Origin: Salinivirga cyanobacteriivorans
GTDB taxonomy: Bacteria; Bacteroidota; Bacteroidia; Bacteroidales; Salinivirgaceae
NCBI RefSeq assembly: GCF_001443605.1
Contig: NZ_CP013118.1
Location: 2,429,501-2,493,500 of the forward strand
Direction: 5' to 3'
DNA length: 64,000 nt
The position numbers were made by a program, and so were the translations under genes. How positions within the stretch are numbered: the first letter of the stretch is position 1; each line of letters begins with the position of its first letter. The notes under the pieces are model-generated. The model was not told the DNA's origin and made no database searches. It saw nothing but the letters and a program-made list of their open reading frames with translations. Positions 28,986 through 37,451 of the stretch are shown here, piece after piece.

Positions 28986-29171
28986 TTACAAACTAATTTC
29001 CTTTTCTATAGCCTGACGACCACGGTAATAACCACATTCCGGGCAAACTCTGTGATACTGTACAGTAGCTCCACAATTTTGACATACACTAAGTTGTGGC
29101 TTCACCGCTTTGTAATGCGTTCTTCTTTTGTGTTTTCTTTGCTTTGATGTTCTACTCTTTGGATGTGCCAT
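28986..29171 (-). CDS. rpmF: 50S ribosomal protein L32
   Basis: The 61-residue protein begins MAHPKSRTSKQRKHKRRTHY, as L32 does, and keeps a four-Cys zinc ribbon CQNCGATVQYHRVCPECGYY. It lies 12 bases after the YceD gene and before plsX, the usual order. Confidence 0.97.
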   Translation of the reverse strand: MAHPKSRTSKQRKHKRRTHYKAVKPQLSVCQNCGATVQYHRVCPECGYYRGRQAIEKEISL

Positions 29172-29183
29172 TTTTTACTTAAT

Positions 29184-29699
29184 TTAAATTAAATCTTTTA
29201 ATCCATTCCATCGGGGATCAATATCCCCTCCTTTTTTCTTATTCTCTTCAATTCGCTCGATCATATCCTGATCACAATCTTCTTCATCTTCATGCACCCT
29301 TTGAATGGGTAAAGCGGTCATGATCATATCATAAAAATACTGGTCAAGCTCAATTTCTCCTTTTTCGGGCTCAAAGATAATGATGTTTATTTCATTATCC
29401 TGATTTTTCCCTGCCTCTTTTAATATTGCCGTTTCAGATAATTCAAAATTATAATTGAATTCAGACAGACACCTGTCACAGGTTAACGCTACGAAGCCCT
29501 TGATGGAAATATCCATTTCGGTTACATTGGGCCGTTTAAACAAAACAACCTCTGCCGAGGCTTTAGCTTGTTTTATTTCTTCTTCAGGGTATTGTTCGAA
29601 CAATTGATTGTCAATATCAAAATGGTATTGATTCTCATCCCCCGTGATTCCGTTTATCTGAATACGAAACAGCGCTTTATCTCCCTGCTTATCTCTCAT
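29184..29699 (-). CDS. yceD: YceD/DUF177 family protein
   Basis: The start is put at the ATG at 29699 (MRDKQGDKALF). A longer frame would need a TTG start at 29747 that sits inside the promoter element, and a purine-rich GGAAGGACGG precedes the ATG. The 171-residue product shows the DUF177 pattern: an ITGDENQYHFDID start, then VALTCDRCLSEFN (C-x2-C) and an acidic C-terminal half. YceD is linked to ribosome or 23S rRNA metabolism and is co-transcribed with rpmF across bacteria. Confidence 0.85.
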   Translation of the reverse strand: MRDKQGDKALFRIQINGITGDENQYHFDIDNQLFEQYPEEEIKQAKASAEVVLFKRPNVTEMDISIKGFVALTCDRCLSEFNYNFELSETAILKEAGKNQDNEINIIIFEPEKGEIELDQYFYDMIMTALPIQRVHEDEEDCDQDMIERIEENKKKGGDIDPRWNGLKDLI

Positions 29700-29744
29700 A
29701 AATCCGTCCTTCCGCTTTTCAGTTTTTCTTAAGGAAAATTCGTG

Positions 29745-29752
29745 CAAAATTA
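29745..29752 (-). promoter_or_regulatory. Bacteroidota -7 element of the yceD-rpmF-plsX-fabH operon
   Basis: On the minus strand this reads TAATTTTG, an exact TAnnTTTG match, about 45 bases before the chosen yceD ATG. Confidence 0.55.
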
Positions 29753-29878
29753 AAAAAACATATTATACTACACACAAAATTTCAGTATTTTATGCTTTTT
29801 CCTTAAAAAATTAAATAATTCATACGTATATTTCTAAATTTTAATGGTCATAACCTATCCCGCCAAAGGCGGATTGTA

Positions 29879-29944
29879 GCTCGCCATGATAACCCTAAAA
29901 TACGTCCCGTAGTTTTTTTAGAATCGTTATAATCTTGCGCGAGC
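29879..29944. repeat. Imperfect palindromic element, REP/MITE-like
   Basis: The outer arms GCTCGC and GCGAGC and the inner arms CTAAAA (29895-29900) and TTTTAG (29916-29921) pair across about 66 bases. Partly matching GATAAC/GTTAT lies between them. It is not close to any gene end on a strand that would make it a terminator. Confidence 0.4.
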
Positions 29945-30119
29945 CTCACTCCGCGGCGAGGTGGACCATGAAACAGTTCCTGTACTATAATCATAAAAAC
30001 GTTGTAAAATATTTATTTGCAAGGATTAAACCAAAACATAAAACCATGATTTATTTTGCTTTAACAAATTTACTGGCCCGGGTTTTGATTGCCAGTATTC
30101 AATAATAATTGTATTATTA

Positions 30120-30127
30120 TATATTTG
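30120..30127 (+). promoter_or_regulatory. Bacteroidota -7 element (TATATTTG)
   Basis: An exact TAnnTTTG match ends 20 bases before the PepSY gene start. Confidence 0.5.
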
Positions 30128-30147
30128 TGCACACACAATTTTTTTAA

Positions 30148-30720
30148 ATGAATCGTAGCAGCCAGGCCAAACTTATTAGAATTTTCAGAAAAATTCATCG
30201 CATATCGGGATTAAATCTTGTAATTTTTATTTTAGTAATTGCCATTTCCGGTATCTTGCTCGGGTGGAAAAAAAACAGTAACGGATACATTCTACCTCCA
30301 ACACAGAAAGGGACTACTACGGAGGTTTCGAACTGGTTAAGCTTCGACTCTTTAAAAACCATAGCCTGCCAGACAATGTTCGACAGTGTGGGGCCCGCAT
30401 TGCCGGTAAAAATTAATAAAATAGATGCCCGGCCCGACAAAGGTGTTGTGAAATTCGTTTTTGACGGGCATTACAAAGGAATTCAACTTGATGCTGCTAC
30501 GGGAGAGGTATTGCAGGTAGCCACGCGAAGAAGCGACCTTATTGAGAATATTCATGATGGCTCTGTGCTTGACAAAGCTTTTGGTACAGGGAGTGGAATT
30601 ATTAAAATAATTTACACATCAATAATGGGTGTTAGCCTTGTGGCTTTTTCAATTACAGGTCTCTGGATATGGTACGGACCAAAGAAAATAAAAAACAGAA
30701 AAAGGGCGCGCAAAAAATAA
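30148..30720 (+). CDS. PepSY-associated transmembrane protein
   Basis: The 190-residue protein has a membrane helix near 20-42 (HRISGLNLVIFILVIAISGILLGW). A periplasmic PepSY-like segment follows (KFVFDGHYKGIQLDAATGEVLQVATR), then a second helix near 155-175 ending GLWIWYGPKK. This is a short version of the PepSY_TM proteins often linked to iron or siderophore reductases, which usually have four helices. No TonB receptor is adjacent. The basic tail is cytoplasmic. Exact role is unknown. Confidence 0.8.
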   Translation: MNRSSQAKLIRIFRKIHRISGLNLVIFILVIAISGILLGWKKNSNGYILPPTQKGTTTEVSNWLSFDSLKTIACQTMFDSVGPALPVKINKIDARPDKGVVKFVFDGHYKGIQLDAATGEVLQVATRRSDLIENIHDGSVLDKAFGTGSGIIKIIYTSIMGVSLVAFSITGLWIWYGPKKIKNRKRARKK

Positions 30721-30881
30721 TCGTCGTCTTTTTCCTATGAGCGTTTCGCAAATAAATACTATTCTCTTCGATTCCTGAATGCGAACCTGCAATGCGACTC
30801 AATGAACCCTGGTAGTGATCAAAATTATGGGATAATCATCTTGCGGTTCCGGAGGCCATTGAGTGGCTGGTGTAATATAAA

Positions 30882-30936
30882 GCGGGAATTGAGATGGCCG
30901 CAAAACAAAAAAAACACAGAGATAACTTGCAGGGTT
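30882..30936. repeat. Direct repeat copy A of the tRNA-Ala downstream region
   Basis: These 55 bases match 31628-31682 at 47 positions. Copy B contains the tRNA-Ala terminator; copy A has no tRNA beside it. Mismatches cluster in the A-run and in the stem. Confidence 0.7.
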
Positions 30937-31085
30937 TTTTACTGTTTTGTGCAATGGGCACTCAAACTGCAGAATGCATTAGTATGGAAAGTTCTATTTT
31001 TACTTACGATCTTTAATTTTACTTTTTTTGCTACAGGTCAAAAAAAGTAAATAAAAAAAACCCGCCGCTTACAGAAAATTGCTAT

Positions 31086-31185
31086 AAACCTGGTCATTAT
31101 GGCTAAAGTTTACGAACTCACACCGATTTTTTTTGAAAAATCGGTGCTCAAACAGCGCAAACTTTGACGCCATAATAACAAGGTT
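31086..31185. repeat. 100-base imperfect palindrome, REP/MITE-like
   Basis: AAACCTGGTCATTATGGC at the left pairs with GCCATAATAACAAGGTTT at the right with two mismatches, followed by AAAGTTTACG/GCAAACTTT arms. A central perfect hairpin CACCGATTTTTT...AAAAATCGGTG sits inside. No transposase is present. Confidence 0.6.
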
Positions 31186-31627
31186 TTCTTAACGCATTTT
31201 TCTTCATGCGGCTAGCTGGCATACTTTTCCTTGCTGGTCAACGACAAGACCCAAGGTGGGTTGGCCAGACCAAATTACTCATAAACTTGTGAGGGCTAAA
31301 GCCATTGGCGGGCTGGCGCAGGAATGTGTATTCTACTCGAATTAATCCATTGAATAAAGCGGGGTCAATGGCGAAGCCCTCATGAACAGATAGATGAATA
31401 ACCGCAACTTGGTCTTGATTTCCGCCAATTGTCGGACAGGTTTTGATCCTTTTGATCAAGGAAAGGGATAAGAGAAATCATTCATCACGGATGCCCGGAT
31501 TTATGCATCACAGTTTAATTCTATTTAGCGAAATGGGACGGGCGATCCACAACACAAATCAAAACTCACAACAGGCTGATAATTAGCAGTAAATTTTTAG
31601 GGCGTCGATGTGGTGCACAAAACAGGA

Positions 31628-31682
31628 GCGGGAATCAAGATGGCCGCAAAACAAAAACCCCACAGTGATAATCTGCAGGGTT
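31628..31682. repeat. Direct repeat copy B (beside tRNA-Ala)
   Basis: This copy directly follows the 3' end of tRNA-Ala and includes its terminator hairpin. It is 47/55 identical to 30882-30936. Confidence 0.7.
31653..31682 (-). terminator. tRNA-Ala terminator
   Basis: On the minus strand CCCTGCAG and CTGTGGGG pair (with G-U pairs) around ATTATCA, followed by TTTTT, starting six bases after the tRNA 3' end. Confidence 0.7.
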
Positions 31683-31687
31683 GCTTG

Positions 31688-31761
31688 TGGAGAATAGCGG
31701 AGTCGAACCGCTGACCTCTTGACTGCCAGTCAAGCGCTCTAGCCAACTGAGCTAATTCCCC
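31688..31761 (-). tRNA. tRNA-Ala (anticodon GGC)
   Basis: The minus strand gives a 74-base cloverleaf. The acceptor arms GGGGAAT/ATTCTCC contain the G3-U70 pair that marks alanine tRNAs. The D-arm is AGCTCAGTTGGCTAGAGC, the anticodon arm CTTGA-CTGGCAG-TCAAG gives anticodon GGC, and the T-arm has GGTTCGACTCC. The CCA end is not encoded. Confidence 0.95.
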
Positions 31762-31790
31762 AATTGGAATTGAAATGCAAAACTAATAAA

Positions 31791-32402
31791 CTATTTTATT
31801 GTAGCAAATTTATATTCCAGATTTTTAAAATGGTCTAATACCAGGGGTAATGCATACTCCAGGTTTTTAAATGCTTTCATAGAATCGTGAAAAACAATTA
31901 TTGACCCGTCTTTATATTTAGAAAGCACATTTACCAGACATCGTTCACCGGAAATTTTGCGATTAAAATCATAAGAGAGTACATCCCAGAATACAATATT
32001 AAATTGCTTTTTAAGATATTTGAGTTGTACTGGAGTTATTTTTCCATATGGTGGCCTGAACAAATGACTTTTGATAAAACGGTTACCCAGCTGTATATCT
32101 TCAATATATTTATTGAATCCGAGCTTCCACCCACTCACATGACTATATGTATGGTTACCAACCTGGTGCCCTTCATCAAGGATACGTTGATAGAGGTATT
32201 GATTTTTTTCTACATTTTTTCCAATAAGGAAAAACGTAGCTTTGGCATTATATTGTTTAAGAAGATCGAGCAACCAGGGTGTCGTTTCAGGAACGGGCCC
32301 GTCGTCAAAAGTTAAGAAAATTTCCTTAGTCCTATCCGGATAGCTCCAGGTAGTGGTAGGCATTATTTTCTCTGCTATATTGGCTGTTTTAAAATTAAAC
32401 AT
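31791..32402 (-). CDS. Polysaccharide deacetylase (NodB fold, CE4)
   Basis: The 203-residue protein has the CE4 motifs in order: motif 1 FLTFDDGP near residue 30, then KATFFLIGKN, motif 2 HQVGNHTYSH (metal His pair) near 76-85, motif 3 FRPPYGK near 115-121, and a VFHDS motif near 170. Such enzymes remove acetyl groups from peptidoglycan, chitin-like or exopolysaccharide sugars. No signal peptide is obvious at this start, and the short N-terminus leaves localisation open. It has a promoter element 20 bases upstream. Confidence 0.92.
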   Translation of the reverse strand: MFNFKTANIAEKIMPTTTWSYPDRTKEIFLTFDDGPVPETTPWLLDLLKQYNAKATFFLIGKNVEKNQYLYQRILDEGHQVGNHTYSHVSGWKLGFNKYIEDIQLGNRFIKSHLFRPPYGKITPVQLKYLKKQFNIVFWDVLSYDFNRKISGERCLVNVLSKYKDGSIIVFHDSMKAFKNLEYALPLVLDHFKNLEYKFATIK

Positions 32403-32422
32403 GGCAACGGGTTAAATCGGAA

Positions 32423-32430
32423 CAAAATTA
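32423..32430 (-). promoter_or_regulatory. Bacteroidota -7 element of the deacetylase gene
   Basis: On the minus strand this reads TAATTTTG, an exact TAnnTTTG match, 20 bases before the ATG at 32402. Confidence 0.5.
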
Positions 32431-32456
32431 GTTTTTTTAATTTTTTTAAAAAAAGA

Positions 32457-32488
32457 TTTTGTGCGTGAAAAAAAATAATATACTTTTG
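32457..32488 (+). promoter_or_regulatory. Bacteroidota promoter of tRNA-Gln
   Basis: TTTTG (32457-32461) and TACTTTTG (32481-32488) are separated by 19 bases, matching the -33/-7 consensus and spacing. The -7 ends 15 bases before the mature tRNA, a good distance for a stable RNA promoter. This is the clearest promoter in the window. Confidence 0.75.
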
Positions 32489-32503
32489 CAACCACGTTAT
32501 GGA

Positions 32504-32575
32504 TGACCCATGGTGTAATTGGCAACACAGCTGGTTTTGGTCCAGCCGTTAGAGGTTCGAGTCCTCTTGGGTCAA
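32504..32575 (+). tRNA. tRNA-Gln (anticodon TTG)
   Basis: The 72-base cloverleaf has acceptor arms TGACCCA/TGGGTCA starting with the U1-A72 pair usual in Gln tRNA. The anticodon arm GCTGG-TTTTGGT-CCAGC gives TTG, and the T-arm contains GGTTCGAGTCC. CCA is not encoded. A terminator follows directly. Confidence 0.96.
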
Positions 32576-32581
32576 CAAAGA

Positions 32582-32612
32582 AAGGCTTCGGATGTTCGAA
32601 GCCTTTTTTTTT
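32582..32612 (+). terminator. Rho-independent terminator after tRNA-Gln
   Basis: AAGGCTTCG and CGAAGCCTT form a perfect 9-bp stem with a GATGTT loop and a long T-run. Confidence 0.88.
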
Positions 32613-32644
32613 TAAAAGATCTTTCATTTTAACGCACTTAGCAA

Positions 32645-33584
32645 ATGGATTGTTTCATCCATGCAGCGCCTTTACAGGGACTAACAGATTACAAATTTCG
32701 AAATGTGTTTGCTCAGTTATTTAGCGGTGTCGACTATTTTTATGCGCCTTACATACGGTTAAGCAGCAAGAAGGAGATAAAAAAAGCCAATCTCAGAGAT
32801 ATCAACCCGAAGCACAATGTTGGATATACCCTGATTCCACAGGTGTTGACCAATAATTCCGATGATTTCCTTAAGGTTGCCAAATACATTGAAGAAACCG
32901 GATATAAAGAGCTGAACTGGAATCTGGGCTGCCCCTATCCCATGGTTACGAAAAAAGGAATGGGTGCAGGTATGTTGAATAATCCGGACGCCATTGTAAA
33001 TTTACTTGAGCGGGTATGTAGTACCACGAACGTGCAACTATCAGTTAAAATGAGACTTGGTAATGAATTGCCAGGCAATATATTATAAATACTGCCTCTG
33101 TTAAATGATTTTCCAATTAAAAACAATATTATTCATCCTAGAATTGGTAAGCAACTTTACAAAGGGGCAGTCGATTTAGATACATTTGAAAAATGCCTCA
33201 ATTTAACGCGGCATGAGATTATTTATAATGGCGATATTACAGGCATTGAAGATTATAAAAAATTAAAGACCCGTTTTCCGGATATTAATCATTGGATGAT
33301 AGGTAGAGGATTAATTGCCAACCCGCTTTTACCAGAAATGATTAAGAAAAATACAGGTCAGTTCCCGCAAAATCGTTTTGAACTATTAAAAAAATTCCAT
33401 GATTTGTTGTTATATGAATTTAAGCAATCGCTTTCGGGTGATGCTCATATTATAATGAAAATGAGATCTTAATGGGATTATTGGATAAATAATTTTCCCG
33501 AAAGTAGAAAAGTATATAAAAAAATCTAAATCCTTATTGGATTACCATGCAGCTGTGCGACAGTTCTTTGCCGGGATGTTTTAA
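32645..33584 (+). pseudogene. dus: tRNA-dihydrouridine synthase pseudogene
   Basis: The first 147 codons encode a good Dus N-terminus: HAAPLQGLTDYKFRN, APYIRLS, and NWNLGCPYP with catalytic Cys96. An in-frame TAA at 33086-33088 interrupts it. The same frame then continues with IHPRIGKQLYKG, IIYNGDITGIEDY and NHWMIGRGLIANPLL, all Dus motifs, until a second TAA at 33470-33472. WDYWINNFPESRKVYKKI follows, to a third stop at 33527. The last part (LLDYHAAVRQFFAGMF) is in another frame. So there are at least two nonsense changes and one frameshift. Protein motifs remain clear, so decay looks recent. The N-terminal fragment alone lacks half the TIM barrel. Confidence 0.88.
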
Positions 33585-33748
33585 TAGTTTATTTAAACAC
33601 CCAGGCTGGTTTATAATATTAACAGATACGCATTATCAGGCCTTATCGTCAAACCTTAGGGAATAGAAATCGTTTGAATTTATTTGATTAAAAATAAGAG
33701 ACAGACCTACTGGTTGAGGGCCGTCAAATGCAGACTAAATTTCAAATT

Positions 33749-34534
33749 TTAAAACGACTCTAGATGTTTTATTAAATTTTCTACATAGTTGCCATCCATT
33801 TTTTGATATGGTCGCTCCCATTTTCCGTACATAGGGTTAGGTAAAACAATAAATTTATTGCCAAAAAGCGTCTTTTGATTTTCGAGGACTTTATGCGCAT
33901 TTTGATTTTTTCGCTTATCGTACAAATGATCAAAATCGCCAAGATTATCTCCAATTAACAGGTCAATACTATATTTCTCTTCAACTTTGGCTCTTCGATA
34001 TTGCTTATCAGAAGTGGTATCCTTAAGAAATACAAATTCGCGGCTGGCATTTGGAAAACCTTCTTCCTTCAGGTTTTTAAGTGTAGCGTCCATTTGCGAA
34101 ACATGGCGGTTTGAGATATAAATAACTTCCATTCCGTTTTGCTTGGCATAGGTGGTAAAATCCAGGGCTCCATTTAAAGCAGCAGCAGAACCTTGTTGCA
34201 CCCAGCGGTCCCAGGATATGGAGGAAAACGTACTGTCGTTTTCGATACACCAACCCTGGTATGGCGAATTATCTAAAACCGTTTCATCTATATCAAGTAC
34301 AACTGCACTATTTTTTTCACCCTTATTTTTTAAAATTTCATCTACACGCAGTTTAGCAATATTGAAGGCCTGATAATAAAGCGCCTTTCTTTCTGCAGCC
34401 TTTTGATACCAAGCTGTACTCAATAGCATATGAGTCGATTGTTGGTTTTGCGCTTCTGAATCTTTGCTACTTTTCGTTTCGCAGCCCTGCATTGTTAATA
34501 TAGCAGCTAATGCCATAAGAGAAAATATCTTCAT
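33749..34534 (-). CDS. Acid phosphatase lipoprotein, e(P4)/class C HAD type
   Basis: The 261-residue protein has a lipobox MQGC with Cys18. The HAD nucleophile motif is VVLDIDETVLDNS (Asp81, Asp83), followed by VIYISNRHVSQMDATLKNL and an IGDNLGDFDHLYD motif. These match 5'-nucleotidase lipoprotein e(P4) family enzymes, which dephosphorylate nucleoside monophosphates at the cell surface. Its start lies 20 bases after the stop of the upstream prenyl synthase gene on the same strand, so they may be co-transcribed. Confidence 0.9.
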   Translation of the reverse strand: MKIFSLMALAAILTMQGCETKSSKDSEAQNQQSTHMLLSTAWYQKAAERKALYYQAFNIAKLRVDEILKNKGEKNSAVVLDIDETVLDNSPYQGWCIENDSTFSSISWDRWVQQGSAAALNGALDFTTYAKQNGMEVIYISNRHVSQMDATLKNLKEEGFPNASREFVFLKDTTSDKQYRRAKVEEKYSIDLLIGDNLGDFDHLYDKRKNQNAHKVLENQKTLFGNKFIVLPNPMYGKWERPYQKMDGNYVENLIKHLESF

Positions 34535-34554
34535 GAAAATATAAATTTAGATTG

Positions 34555-35529
34555 TTACTTTTTTCGGGATACAGTATATTCAACTATTTCGAGCAATGAA
34601 TTTTTATATTCACTCTCAGGAAATTGCTTTAAAATATCAATAGCTCCATTTTTGTATTCTTCCATTTTTTGCCGGGCATAAGTAATTCCCCCATGTTTAT
34701 CGACGAGCTGAATTAAATTTAACACCTCTTTTTTTGTTTTCCTTTTCTTTTTAATCAAACGGAGTATTTGGCGTCGTTCTTTTGCTGATAAAAGGTTTTT
34801 AACATGTATTAGCGGAAGGGTCATTTTCTTTTCTTTGATATCATTACCAGATGGTTTTCCGGTGATCCCATTGGGCTCATAGTCAAATAAATCGTCTTTT
34901 ATTTGAAAAGCCATTCCTAATTTGAGACCAAACTGCTCCATAGCCTCCACGGTATTTTCAGGCGCATTGACAGAAATGGCACCTGCTTTAACGCAGGCAG
35001 CAATTAACGCTGCAGTTTTTTGTTCAATTATTTTAAAGTACACTGCTTCGTCGATATTGAGCTTGCGGGCTTTTTCGATTTGTAATAATTCACCCTGACT
35101 CATTTCATCCACTGCTTTTGATACAACCTCCAGCAGGTGATATTGCTTATGTTTAACTGAAAGTAAAAGACCTCTTGCAAGTAAATAGTCGCCAATTAAT
35201 ACAGCAATTTTATTTTTCCAAAGCGCATTAATTGAGAAAAATCCCCGCCGGAAATTAGAGTCATCCACCACATCGTCGTGCGTTAAGGTAGCAGTATGCA
35301 TCAATTCAATTAATGCTGCGGCATGATGTGTAGCGTCATTAATTTTTCCGTGCATGCCTGCAGATAAAAATACAAGCATGGGCCGCATCTGTTTTCCTTT
35401 GGTGCGAAGAATAAAACGGGTAATGATATCGAGCAAAGGTGTGGTGCTTTTCATGGTACTTTTAAAAAACACCTGAAAATCAGCCATTTCCTTTGATATA
35501 GGTTGCTTAATTGTATTTAATTTAGACAT
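34555..35529 (-). CDS. Polyprenyl diphosphate synthase
   Basis: The start is set at 35529 (MSKLNTIKQPI), the usual opening in this family; 14 extra residues are possible upstream. The 324-residue enzyme has the first Asp-rich motif in LTHDDVVDDSNFRRG and the second in FQIKDDLFDYE. With KGKQMRPMLVFLSAG and a GKPSGNDIKEKKMTLPLIH stretch it belongs to the long-chain trans-prenyl synthases, which supply the menaquinone side chain (octaprenyl or similar). Exact chain length cannot be told. Confidence 0.9.
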   Translation of the reverse strand: MSKLNTIKQPISKEMADFQVFFKSTMKSTTPLLDIITRFILRTKGKQMRPMLVFLSAGMHGKINDATHHAAALIELMHTATLTHDDVVDDSNFRRGFFSINALWKNKIAVLIGDYLLARGLLLSVKHKQYHLLEVVSKAVDEMSQGELLQIEKARKLNIDEAVYFKIIEQKTAALIAACVKAGAISVNAPENTVEAMEQFGLKLGMAFQIKDDLFDYEPNGITGKPSGNDIKEKKMTLPLIHVKNLLSAKERRQILRLIKKKRKTKKEVLNLIQLVDKHGGITYARQKMEEYKNGAIDILKQFPESEYKNSLLEIVEYTVSRKK

Positions 35530-35660
35530 TTGGATTATGTTGGAGAAATACTTGATTATCTGTTTCAACAAACGAACATATTATTTTTTATTGAGATTAA
35601 CGGTATTATTCAAAGGTTTTTTTACTTTGCATTGTAATCATTCACCAAATACTTAAACAC

Positions 35661-37451
35661 TTGAAAAACAACAATTTAGGTAATATTATTTCTAACTTAC
35701 CCGGCAAACCCGGTGTATATCAGTACTTTGATGAACATGGAAAAATTATTTATGTGGGTAAGGCTAAAAATCTGAAAAAGAGGGTTTCTTCATATTTTTC
35801 AAAGCATCATGATACTGCAAAGTTACGTATTTTAGTTTCCAAAATTGCTGACATTAAAACCATTATTGTGGACCGTGAAGAAGACGCACTTCTTTTGGAA
35901 AACAATCTCATAAAAAAATATCAGCCACGGTACAATGTAATGCTGAAAGATGATAAAACCTTCCCGTGGATTTGCATTAAAAACGAACCTTTTCCTCGTA
36001 TTTTCAGCACGCGCAGGGTTGTCAAAGATGGATCAGAATACTTTGGCCCCTATACTTCCGTAAAAATGGTTAAAGCCATTCTGGATTTTATACACAAAAC
36101 ATATAAAATTCGTACCTGCAGCTTAAACCTAAATAAAAAGGATATTGATGCCGGTAAATTTAAAGTTTGCCTGGAGTATCACATAGGAAATTGTCTGGGA
36201 CCTTGCGAAGGACTGCAGCAAGAAAACGATTATAGTAAAAACATTGAACAGATAAGAAATATTTTAAAAGGCAACATTAAAGCAGTAATAAAATATTTTG
36301 AATCTGAAATGAAAAGACTTGCTGCGGAATATAAGTTCGAAGAGGCTGAAGACATAAAGCAAAAGCTGAAACTGTTACAAAATTACCAAAGCAAGTCAAC
36401 GATTGTCAATCCTTCCATTCATAATGTAGATATTTTTTCACTTTATAACCAGGATAAGGCAGCATATATTAATTTTATTAAAGTAAGTAATGGTGCTATT
36501 ATTCAATCGCATACAGTTGAAGTAAAGAAAAAACTGGATGAAAATCCGGCATCGTTGTTGGAATTTGCCATTACCGATATTAGAGCAAAAGTGCACAGCA
36601 CAGCTAAAGAGATAATCACTCCTTTTGAAATGGATTATCCGGGGCTCAACATTCATGTACCGCAACGAGGAGATAAGAAAAAACTCCTGGAGTTATCGGA
36701 ACGCAATGCGAAATATTTTGCTATGGCCAGGCAGAAGCAGGCAGAAAAAGCCAATCCGCAAGAGCGACAGGATAAATTACTTGCCACAATGCAAAAAGAT
36801 TTGCGACTCACAGAACTGCCAAGGCATATTGAAGGTTTCGACAACAGTAATATTCAGGGTAGTAATCCCGTAGCTGCTTGCGTGGTTTTTAAAAACGGCA
36901 AACCAGCAAAACGCGATTACCGGAAATTTAACATTAAAACAGTAGAGGGTCAGGACGATTTTGGCTCCATGCGCGAAATAATACAGCGGCGATACAGCAG
37001 ACTAATACGCGAAGGTCAATCGCTTCCCCAATTAATTGTAATAGATGGTGGTAAAGGTCAGCTCAATGCTGCAGTACAAAGCCTGGAAGAATTGAATTTA
37101 AGAGGAAAAATTGCAATTATTGGTATAGCCAAACGGCTCGAAGAGATATATTTTGCCGACGATCCTGTACCGCTTTATCTTGATAAAAACTCACCTACCC
37201 TGCGTGTAATTCAACATATTAGAAATGAATCTCACAGGTTTGGGATATCATTTCACAGGGATAAACGAAGTCAAAATTTCGCACAATCGGAATTGGATTC
37301 TGTATCAGGGCTGGGTCCAAAAACAATTGAAAAACTTTATAAAGATTTTAAAAGCCTCAAAGGAGTAAAGCAAGCTCCCTATGATGATATTGTATCATCG
37401 GTTGGGCAGGCAAAGGCAAAAATTCTGAAAAAGTATTTTGACAAAAAGTAA
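35661..37451 (+). CDS. uvrC: Excinuclease ABC subunit C
   Basis: The 596-residue nuclease cuts both sides of a DNA lesion with UvrAB. It starts with a TTG codon. The GIY-YIG domain opens with GKPGVYQYFDE ... IYVGKAKNLKKRV, the UVR domain (AAEYKFEEAEDIKQKL) lies near 215-245, and the RNase H-like domain has HIEGFDNSNIQGSNPVAA. Two helix-hairpin-helix units end the protein (SGLGPKTIEKLYKDF, SSVGQAKAKILKKYF). Complete and typical. Its stop lies one base from the end of the convergent ade gene. Confidence 0.97.
   Translation: MKNNNLGNIISNLPGKPGVYQYFDEHGKIIYVGKAKNLKKRVSSYFSKHHDTAKLRILVSKIADIKTIIVDREEDALLLENNLIKKYQPRYNVMLKDDKTFPWICIKNEPFPRIFSTRRVVKDGSEYFGPYTSVKMVKAILDFIHKTYKIRTCSLNLNKKDIDAGKFKVCLEYHIGNCLGPCEGLQQENDYSKNIEQIRNILKGNIKAVIKYFESEMKRLAAEYKFEEAEDIKQKLKLLQNYQSKSTIVNPSIHNVDIFSLYNQDKAAYINFIKVSNGAIIQSHTVEVKKKLDENPASLLEFAITDIRAKVHSTAKEIITPFEMDYPGLNIHVPQRGDKKKLLELSERNAKYFAMARQKQAEKANPQERQDKLLATMQKDLRLTELPRHIEGFDNSNIQGSNPVAACVVFKNGKPAKRDYRKFNIKTVEGQDDFGSMREIIQRRYSRLIREGQSLPQLIVIDGGKGQLNAAVQSLEELNLRGKIAIIGIAKRLEEIYFADDPVPLYLDKNSPTLRVIQHIRNESHRFGISFHRDKRSQNFAQSELDSVSGLGPKTIEKLYKDFKSLKGVKQAPYDDIVSSVGQAKAKILKKYFDKK

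Follow-up and report, generated by a model that had tools for sequence, protein, structure and literature searches.

Reading frames and lesions of the dus locus

The window analysed here is a stretch of 64,000 nucleotides of the Salinivirga cyanobacteriivorans genome, in which a broken dus gene follows a tRNA-Gln gene. The features considered at this locus are the following:

32504..32576, forward strand: tRNA-Gln gene (anticodon ttg), included only as a neighbour
32574..32613, forward strand: inverted repeat forming a terminator-like hairpin followed by a T-run, after the tRNA and some 30 bases before the dus start
32645..33584, forward strand: broken second dus gene, very probably a pseudogene, running from the ATG to the stop that is met first in the frame carrying the tail
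33086..33088, forward strand: first in-frame TAA, codon 148, with no stop at this place in the homologues compared
33470..33472, forward strand: second in-frame TAA, codon 276, with no stop at this place in the homologues compared
33501..33526, forward strand: frame-change stretch with a run of seven A, up to which homologues match frame 0 and from which on they match frame +1
33527..33529, forward strand: third TAA of the original frame, codon 295, of which the frame change is the probable cause
33501..33581, forward strand: C-terminal tail in the +1 frame, with homologue matches, followed by the TAA at 33582

A separate hairpin scan lists the 32574..32613 hairpin for the minus strand only.

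Read from the ATG at 32645, the dus frame stays open for 147 codons, up to 33085, and is then interrupted by the TAA at 33086, beyond which HPRIGKQLYKG, YNGDI and WMIGRG are all encoded in the same frame. Between 32645 and 33469 this frame contains a single stop, versus 21 and 29 in the other two frames, which argues against it being a chance open frame. G+C values at codon positions 1, 2 and 3 are 45.6, 32.7 and 43.5 before the first stop, and 40.9, 26.8 and 27.6 between the first two stops, the first-position excess thus being still present past the interruption. In the +1-frame tail, matches to homologues consist of short pieces with at most 58% identity and a best E value of ~2e-4; since homology proceeds in this frame up to the TAA at 33582, the frame change probably accounts for the stop at 33527. 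Three primary lesions are left for dus, the in-frame stops at 33086 and 33470 and the frame change. These coordinates and lesions agree on re-reading with those of the preliminary description, which had reported a dus gene broken by two in-frame stops and a frameshift, as does its observation that Dus motifs continue in frame past the TAA at 33086.

Family identity of the broken protein

The read-through protein, with X at the stops, scores 101.5 bits against the Pfam Dus model (PF01207), well above the cut-off of 20.4. The catalytic motifs of Dus enzymes comprise the Cys in NxxCP, the K in xVKxR and the H of HxR, and all of them are present in the broken protein, as NLGCP, SVKMR and HPRIGKQLYKG, the His motif lying past the first stop. 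No single open frame spans the whole Dus protein, its reading being interrupted by the stops at 33086 and 33470 and by the frame change. Regarding the subfamily models, scores fall below the cut-off for DusB (TIGR00737, 94.4 bits against 293.3), for DusA (63.2 against 269 for NF008774, and 58.1 against 397.2 for TIGR00742) and for DusC (NF007838, 39.6 against 395). As judged from its sequence, the broken copy is a member of a second Dus subfamily, apart from the DusB type and below every NCBIfam cut-off tried. Among solved structures, the closest to the second-Dus protein of the congener G001 is DusB 6EI9 (65.4 bits). Literature searches, by full text and among the titles listed, showed no published work on the tRNA sites of this second subfamily.

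Other Dus genes in the same genome

The preliminary description had proposed looking for another dus gene in the genome, and an intact one of DusB type was found. The assembly consists of one contig of 4,812,386 bases, with a completeness of 99.98, and contains five matches to the Dus model, with scores of 300.7 bits (an intact gene), 100.7 bits (the broken gene), 25.4, 24.6 and 19.1 bits, the last three of which would correspond to other TIM-barrel proteins. The intact Dus is a 345-residue frame with NFGCP, VKTRLGW, HGRTRAQFYRG, NGDI and MIGRA, motifs by which it may be called DusB type. When the genome was searched with the broken protein at E <= 0.001, only two matches were obtained, namely the broken gene itself and the DusB-type gene.

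Presence and integrity of the second Dus in relatives

Strong matches to the second Dus (E below 1e-45) were found in 23 of 60 genomes, the own genome counted. In the comparison with close relatives suggested in the preliminary description, both congeners, G001 and G002, have a second Dus without internal stops (51% and 52% identity, respectively), at other loci. The family members G003-G005 gave only weak matches, coinciding with their DusB-type genes. Order-wide, at E <= 1e-35 and among genomes at least 90% complete, the second Dus was detected in 166 of 392 genomes and the DusB type in 363 of 392, counts that are rough, as distant copies may not reach the threshold and genes may be absent from draft assemblies. 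Internal stops were absent from the matched part in 21 of 22 order homologues and in all 40 further loci, the exception being G055, whose stop is located elsewhere than those in the broken dus. The disabling changes of the window copy are not found in the orthologues compared, as expected for a pseudogene, and no stop is conserved at the same place in them, which argues against programmed readthrough.

Stops in second-Dus copies are occasionally seen elsewhere in the order. That of G055 (L009) carries one internal TGA, at a Trp codon next to the catalytic motif, and that of G338 (L164, L201) one internal TAA, at a position different from those in the broken dus; both assemblies are fragmented and these single stops may be errors. 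Among the matches listed in the second-Dus survey, the rows with stops are those of the own genome, G055, G338 and G117, the last having its stop outside the part aligned on closer check. The use of internal stops as a decay rate was rejected for want of a clean control, since many of the DusB rows among those listed carry stops too, probably stemming from alignments that run past natural ends.

No DusB match was found in 29 genomes, and among the 20 of them listed G001, G078, G101 and G168 own a second Dus. That of G001 is unbroken, its assembly being a draft 93% complete from which the DusB-type gene may just be missing.

Divergence, phylogeny and the search for signs of relaxed selection

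A tree of 63 rows was built with the window copy, 22 order homologues and 40 of the 80 further loci. Its end branches measure 0.78 for the window copy, 0.84 for G001 and 0.37 for G002, and the window copy branches outside a 44-row group that holds both congeners (support 99/88). A grouping of the window copy together with both congeners gave an AU p of 0.12 and was not rejected. Transfer from another lineage, considered from this tree placement, may account for the window copy, as may vertical descent with relocation.

Invariant columns were then considered in an alignment of 19 homologues, thinned at 80% identity, each row being scored at the columns invariant in the others. The window copy breaks 6 of 71 such columns, four before the first stop and two after it; the corresponding values are 5 of 76 for G001, 1 of 72 for G002, 2 of 73 for G032, 4 of 74 for G055 and 13 of 84 for G047, and the other 14 rows break 0-2 of 71-73. 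The 6 of 71 value implies that a loss would be recent, a fit rather than a proof of decay. Random substitution is expected to yield ~13.5 missense changes per nonsense change, hence ~27 over dus for two nonsense changes, a figure that agrees with 6 of 71 without proving it. Considering the values for unbroken G001 (5 of 76) and for G047 (13 of 84), together with end branches of 0.78 versus 0.84, the stops and the frame change are the only features that mark the window copy as released from selection.

Identity to G002 is 80% for uvrC, 82% for the prenyl synthase and 52% for dus. The low dus identity to congeners was rejected as a sign of decay, since G001 and G002, in which dus is unbroken, share only 57% identity between their own copies; the second Dus is thus divergent within the genus even when unbroken.

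The tRNA-Gln neighbourhood

A deacetylase gene and tRNA-Gln occur together in all of G001-G005, and tRNA-Ala adjoins them in G001, G004 and G005, while the stretches available for G002 and G003 end short of its place. Downstream of tRNA-Gln lies dus in the window, and different frames in each of G001, G002, G003, G004 and G005; no relative of the broken protein was detected by tblastn beside tRNA-Gln in the stretches of these five genomes. In G004 the prenyl synthase gene is near tRNA-Gln, with one other large frame between them, and in G002 the end of the prenyl synthase gene and the lipoprotein e(P4) gene are on the tRNA-Gln contig, ~7 kb off, so that the neighbourhood from tRNA-Gln to the prenyl synthase is also found where dus is missing from it. 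In both G001 and G002 the dus gene sits on a different contig and has different neighbours. From these arrangements, dus appears to have relocated within the genus, and its adjacency to the tRNA gene is probably incidental, since the neighbourhood exists without dus and the congener copies are located elsewhere. The link suggested in the preliminary description between the loss of dus and the adjacent tRNA gene thus finds no backing in these five relatives.

Gene order breaks right after tRNA-Gln, in a different manner in each of six genomes (the window; L140, L197, L198, L199 and L200), and the site downstream of it, from 32577 onward, may be a rearrangement-prone spot. A mobile element at the tRNA-Gln end was considered and discarded, the direct repeats found in 32400-34560 including none of the tRNA end, and the N-terminal part of the broken Dus has no confirmed relative in viral_contigs. 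Around tRNA-Ala, a 56-base repeat is present in two copies 86% identical (30881-30936 and 31627-31682), within a 1070-base stretch without any long frame.

Origin of the broken gene

Bacterial pseudogenes arise by nonsense and frameshift changes, and the window copy resembles them without any striking difference, in having several lesions, homology that runs through them and copies without stops in relatives. Very probably, dus is here a genuine pseudogene of recent origin, derived from a dispensable second Dus paralogue that the order keeps only patchily. Among the three options raised in the preliminary description (recent inactivation, errors in the sequence or bypass of the stops), recent inactivation is the one best supported, considering the homology on both sides of the lesions and the unbroken copies of the congeners. 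Under this explanation, the two in-frame stops and the frame change at the A-run would have ended full-length translation of the second Dus, selection on this paralogue would have been lost, and the DusB-type enzyme would continue part or all of dihydrouridine synthesis. The 147-residue N-terminal product amounts to about half of a TIM barrel and is presumably inactive.

The main rival is that the organism has an unbroken dus, and that both the stops and the frame change stem from sequencing or assembly errors. The frame change does sit at an A-run, a usual site of such errors, and the coding pattern of the gene is otherwise intact, but the other two lesions, both in-frame TAA codons, do not lie in long homopolymers, and the assembly is a single contig with the high completeness given above, so that we consider errors an unlikely origin. 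It is less probable still, and indeed very unlikely, that, either by itself or together with a C-terminal piece translated from a start of its own, the N-terminal product retains a function or has acquired one: its frame is open to 33085 and includes NLGCP and SVKMR, but the stretch 33089-33296 offers no in-frame ATG, GTG or TTG (only CTG, ATT and ATA), and a second piece would be missing ~69 residues, which makes a split gene unlikely. In addition, the broken invariant columns are four before the stop versus two after it, and with four of six preceding the first stop the N-terminal part does not seem to have been specially kept.

Production of a full-length Dus by bypass of both stops and of the frame change would be in keeping with the motifs and codon-position pattern that continue past the first stop, and with the position of this stop at a variable alignment column. 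Nonetheless, it would take two bypasses and a frameshift one after the other, no stop occurs at the corresponding places in the homologues compared, and curated RNA elements in 29000-37000 are two tRNAs, with no other found. Moreover, TAA ends 32 of the 47 frames of at least 150 residues in the window, and is therefore a normal stop here. Bypass, for which no specific support was found, is accordingly regarded as extremely improbable.

Probable loss of the second Dus and its place among known systems

The recent pseudogene proposed here might belong to a wider process, in which the second Dus subfamily is repeatedly lost in the order, is caught in the act in this genome and has its work replaced by the DusB type. 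Such a scenario is tentative and on the whole rather doubtful; the stops in G055 and G338 are compatible with it, as is the fact that no second Dus was detected at E <= 1e-35 in 226 of 392 genomes.

For Mollicutes, a reductive evolution of dihydrouridine synthesis was reportedly described by Faivre in 2021, in work cited in PMC9176250. The present lineage would be like Mollicutes in being left with a single DusB-type enzyme, and unlike them in its 4.8 Mb genome and in having one recent loss; retention of a single DusB-type enzyme in Mollicutes is mentioned in a passage of PMC11162810. In the portion of the same article devoted to B. subtilis, the paralogues DusB1 and DusB2 have overlapping sites, and their single deletions cut dihydrouridine by 34% and 18%, most of it thus being left when one of the two is lost (PMC11162810). 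The situation here is alike in that two Dus paralogues occur in one genome, and differs in that the second one is of another subfamily. The overlap of sites given for B. subtilis makes it plausible that one Dus paralogue is lost while another stays. What otherwise looks like ordinary gene decay, without any new mechanism, is a clear example of a tRNA-modification paralogue that seems to have been lost only lately.
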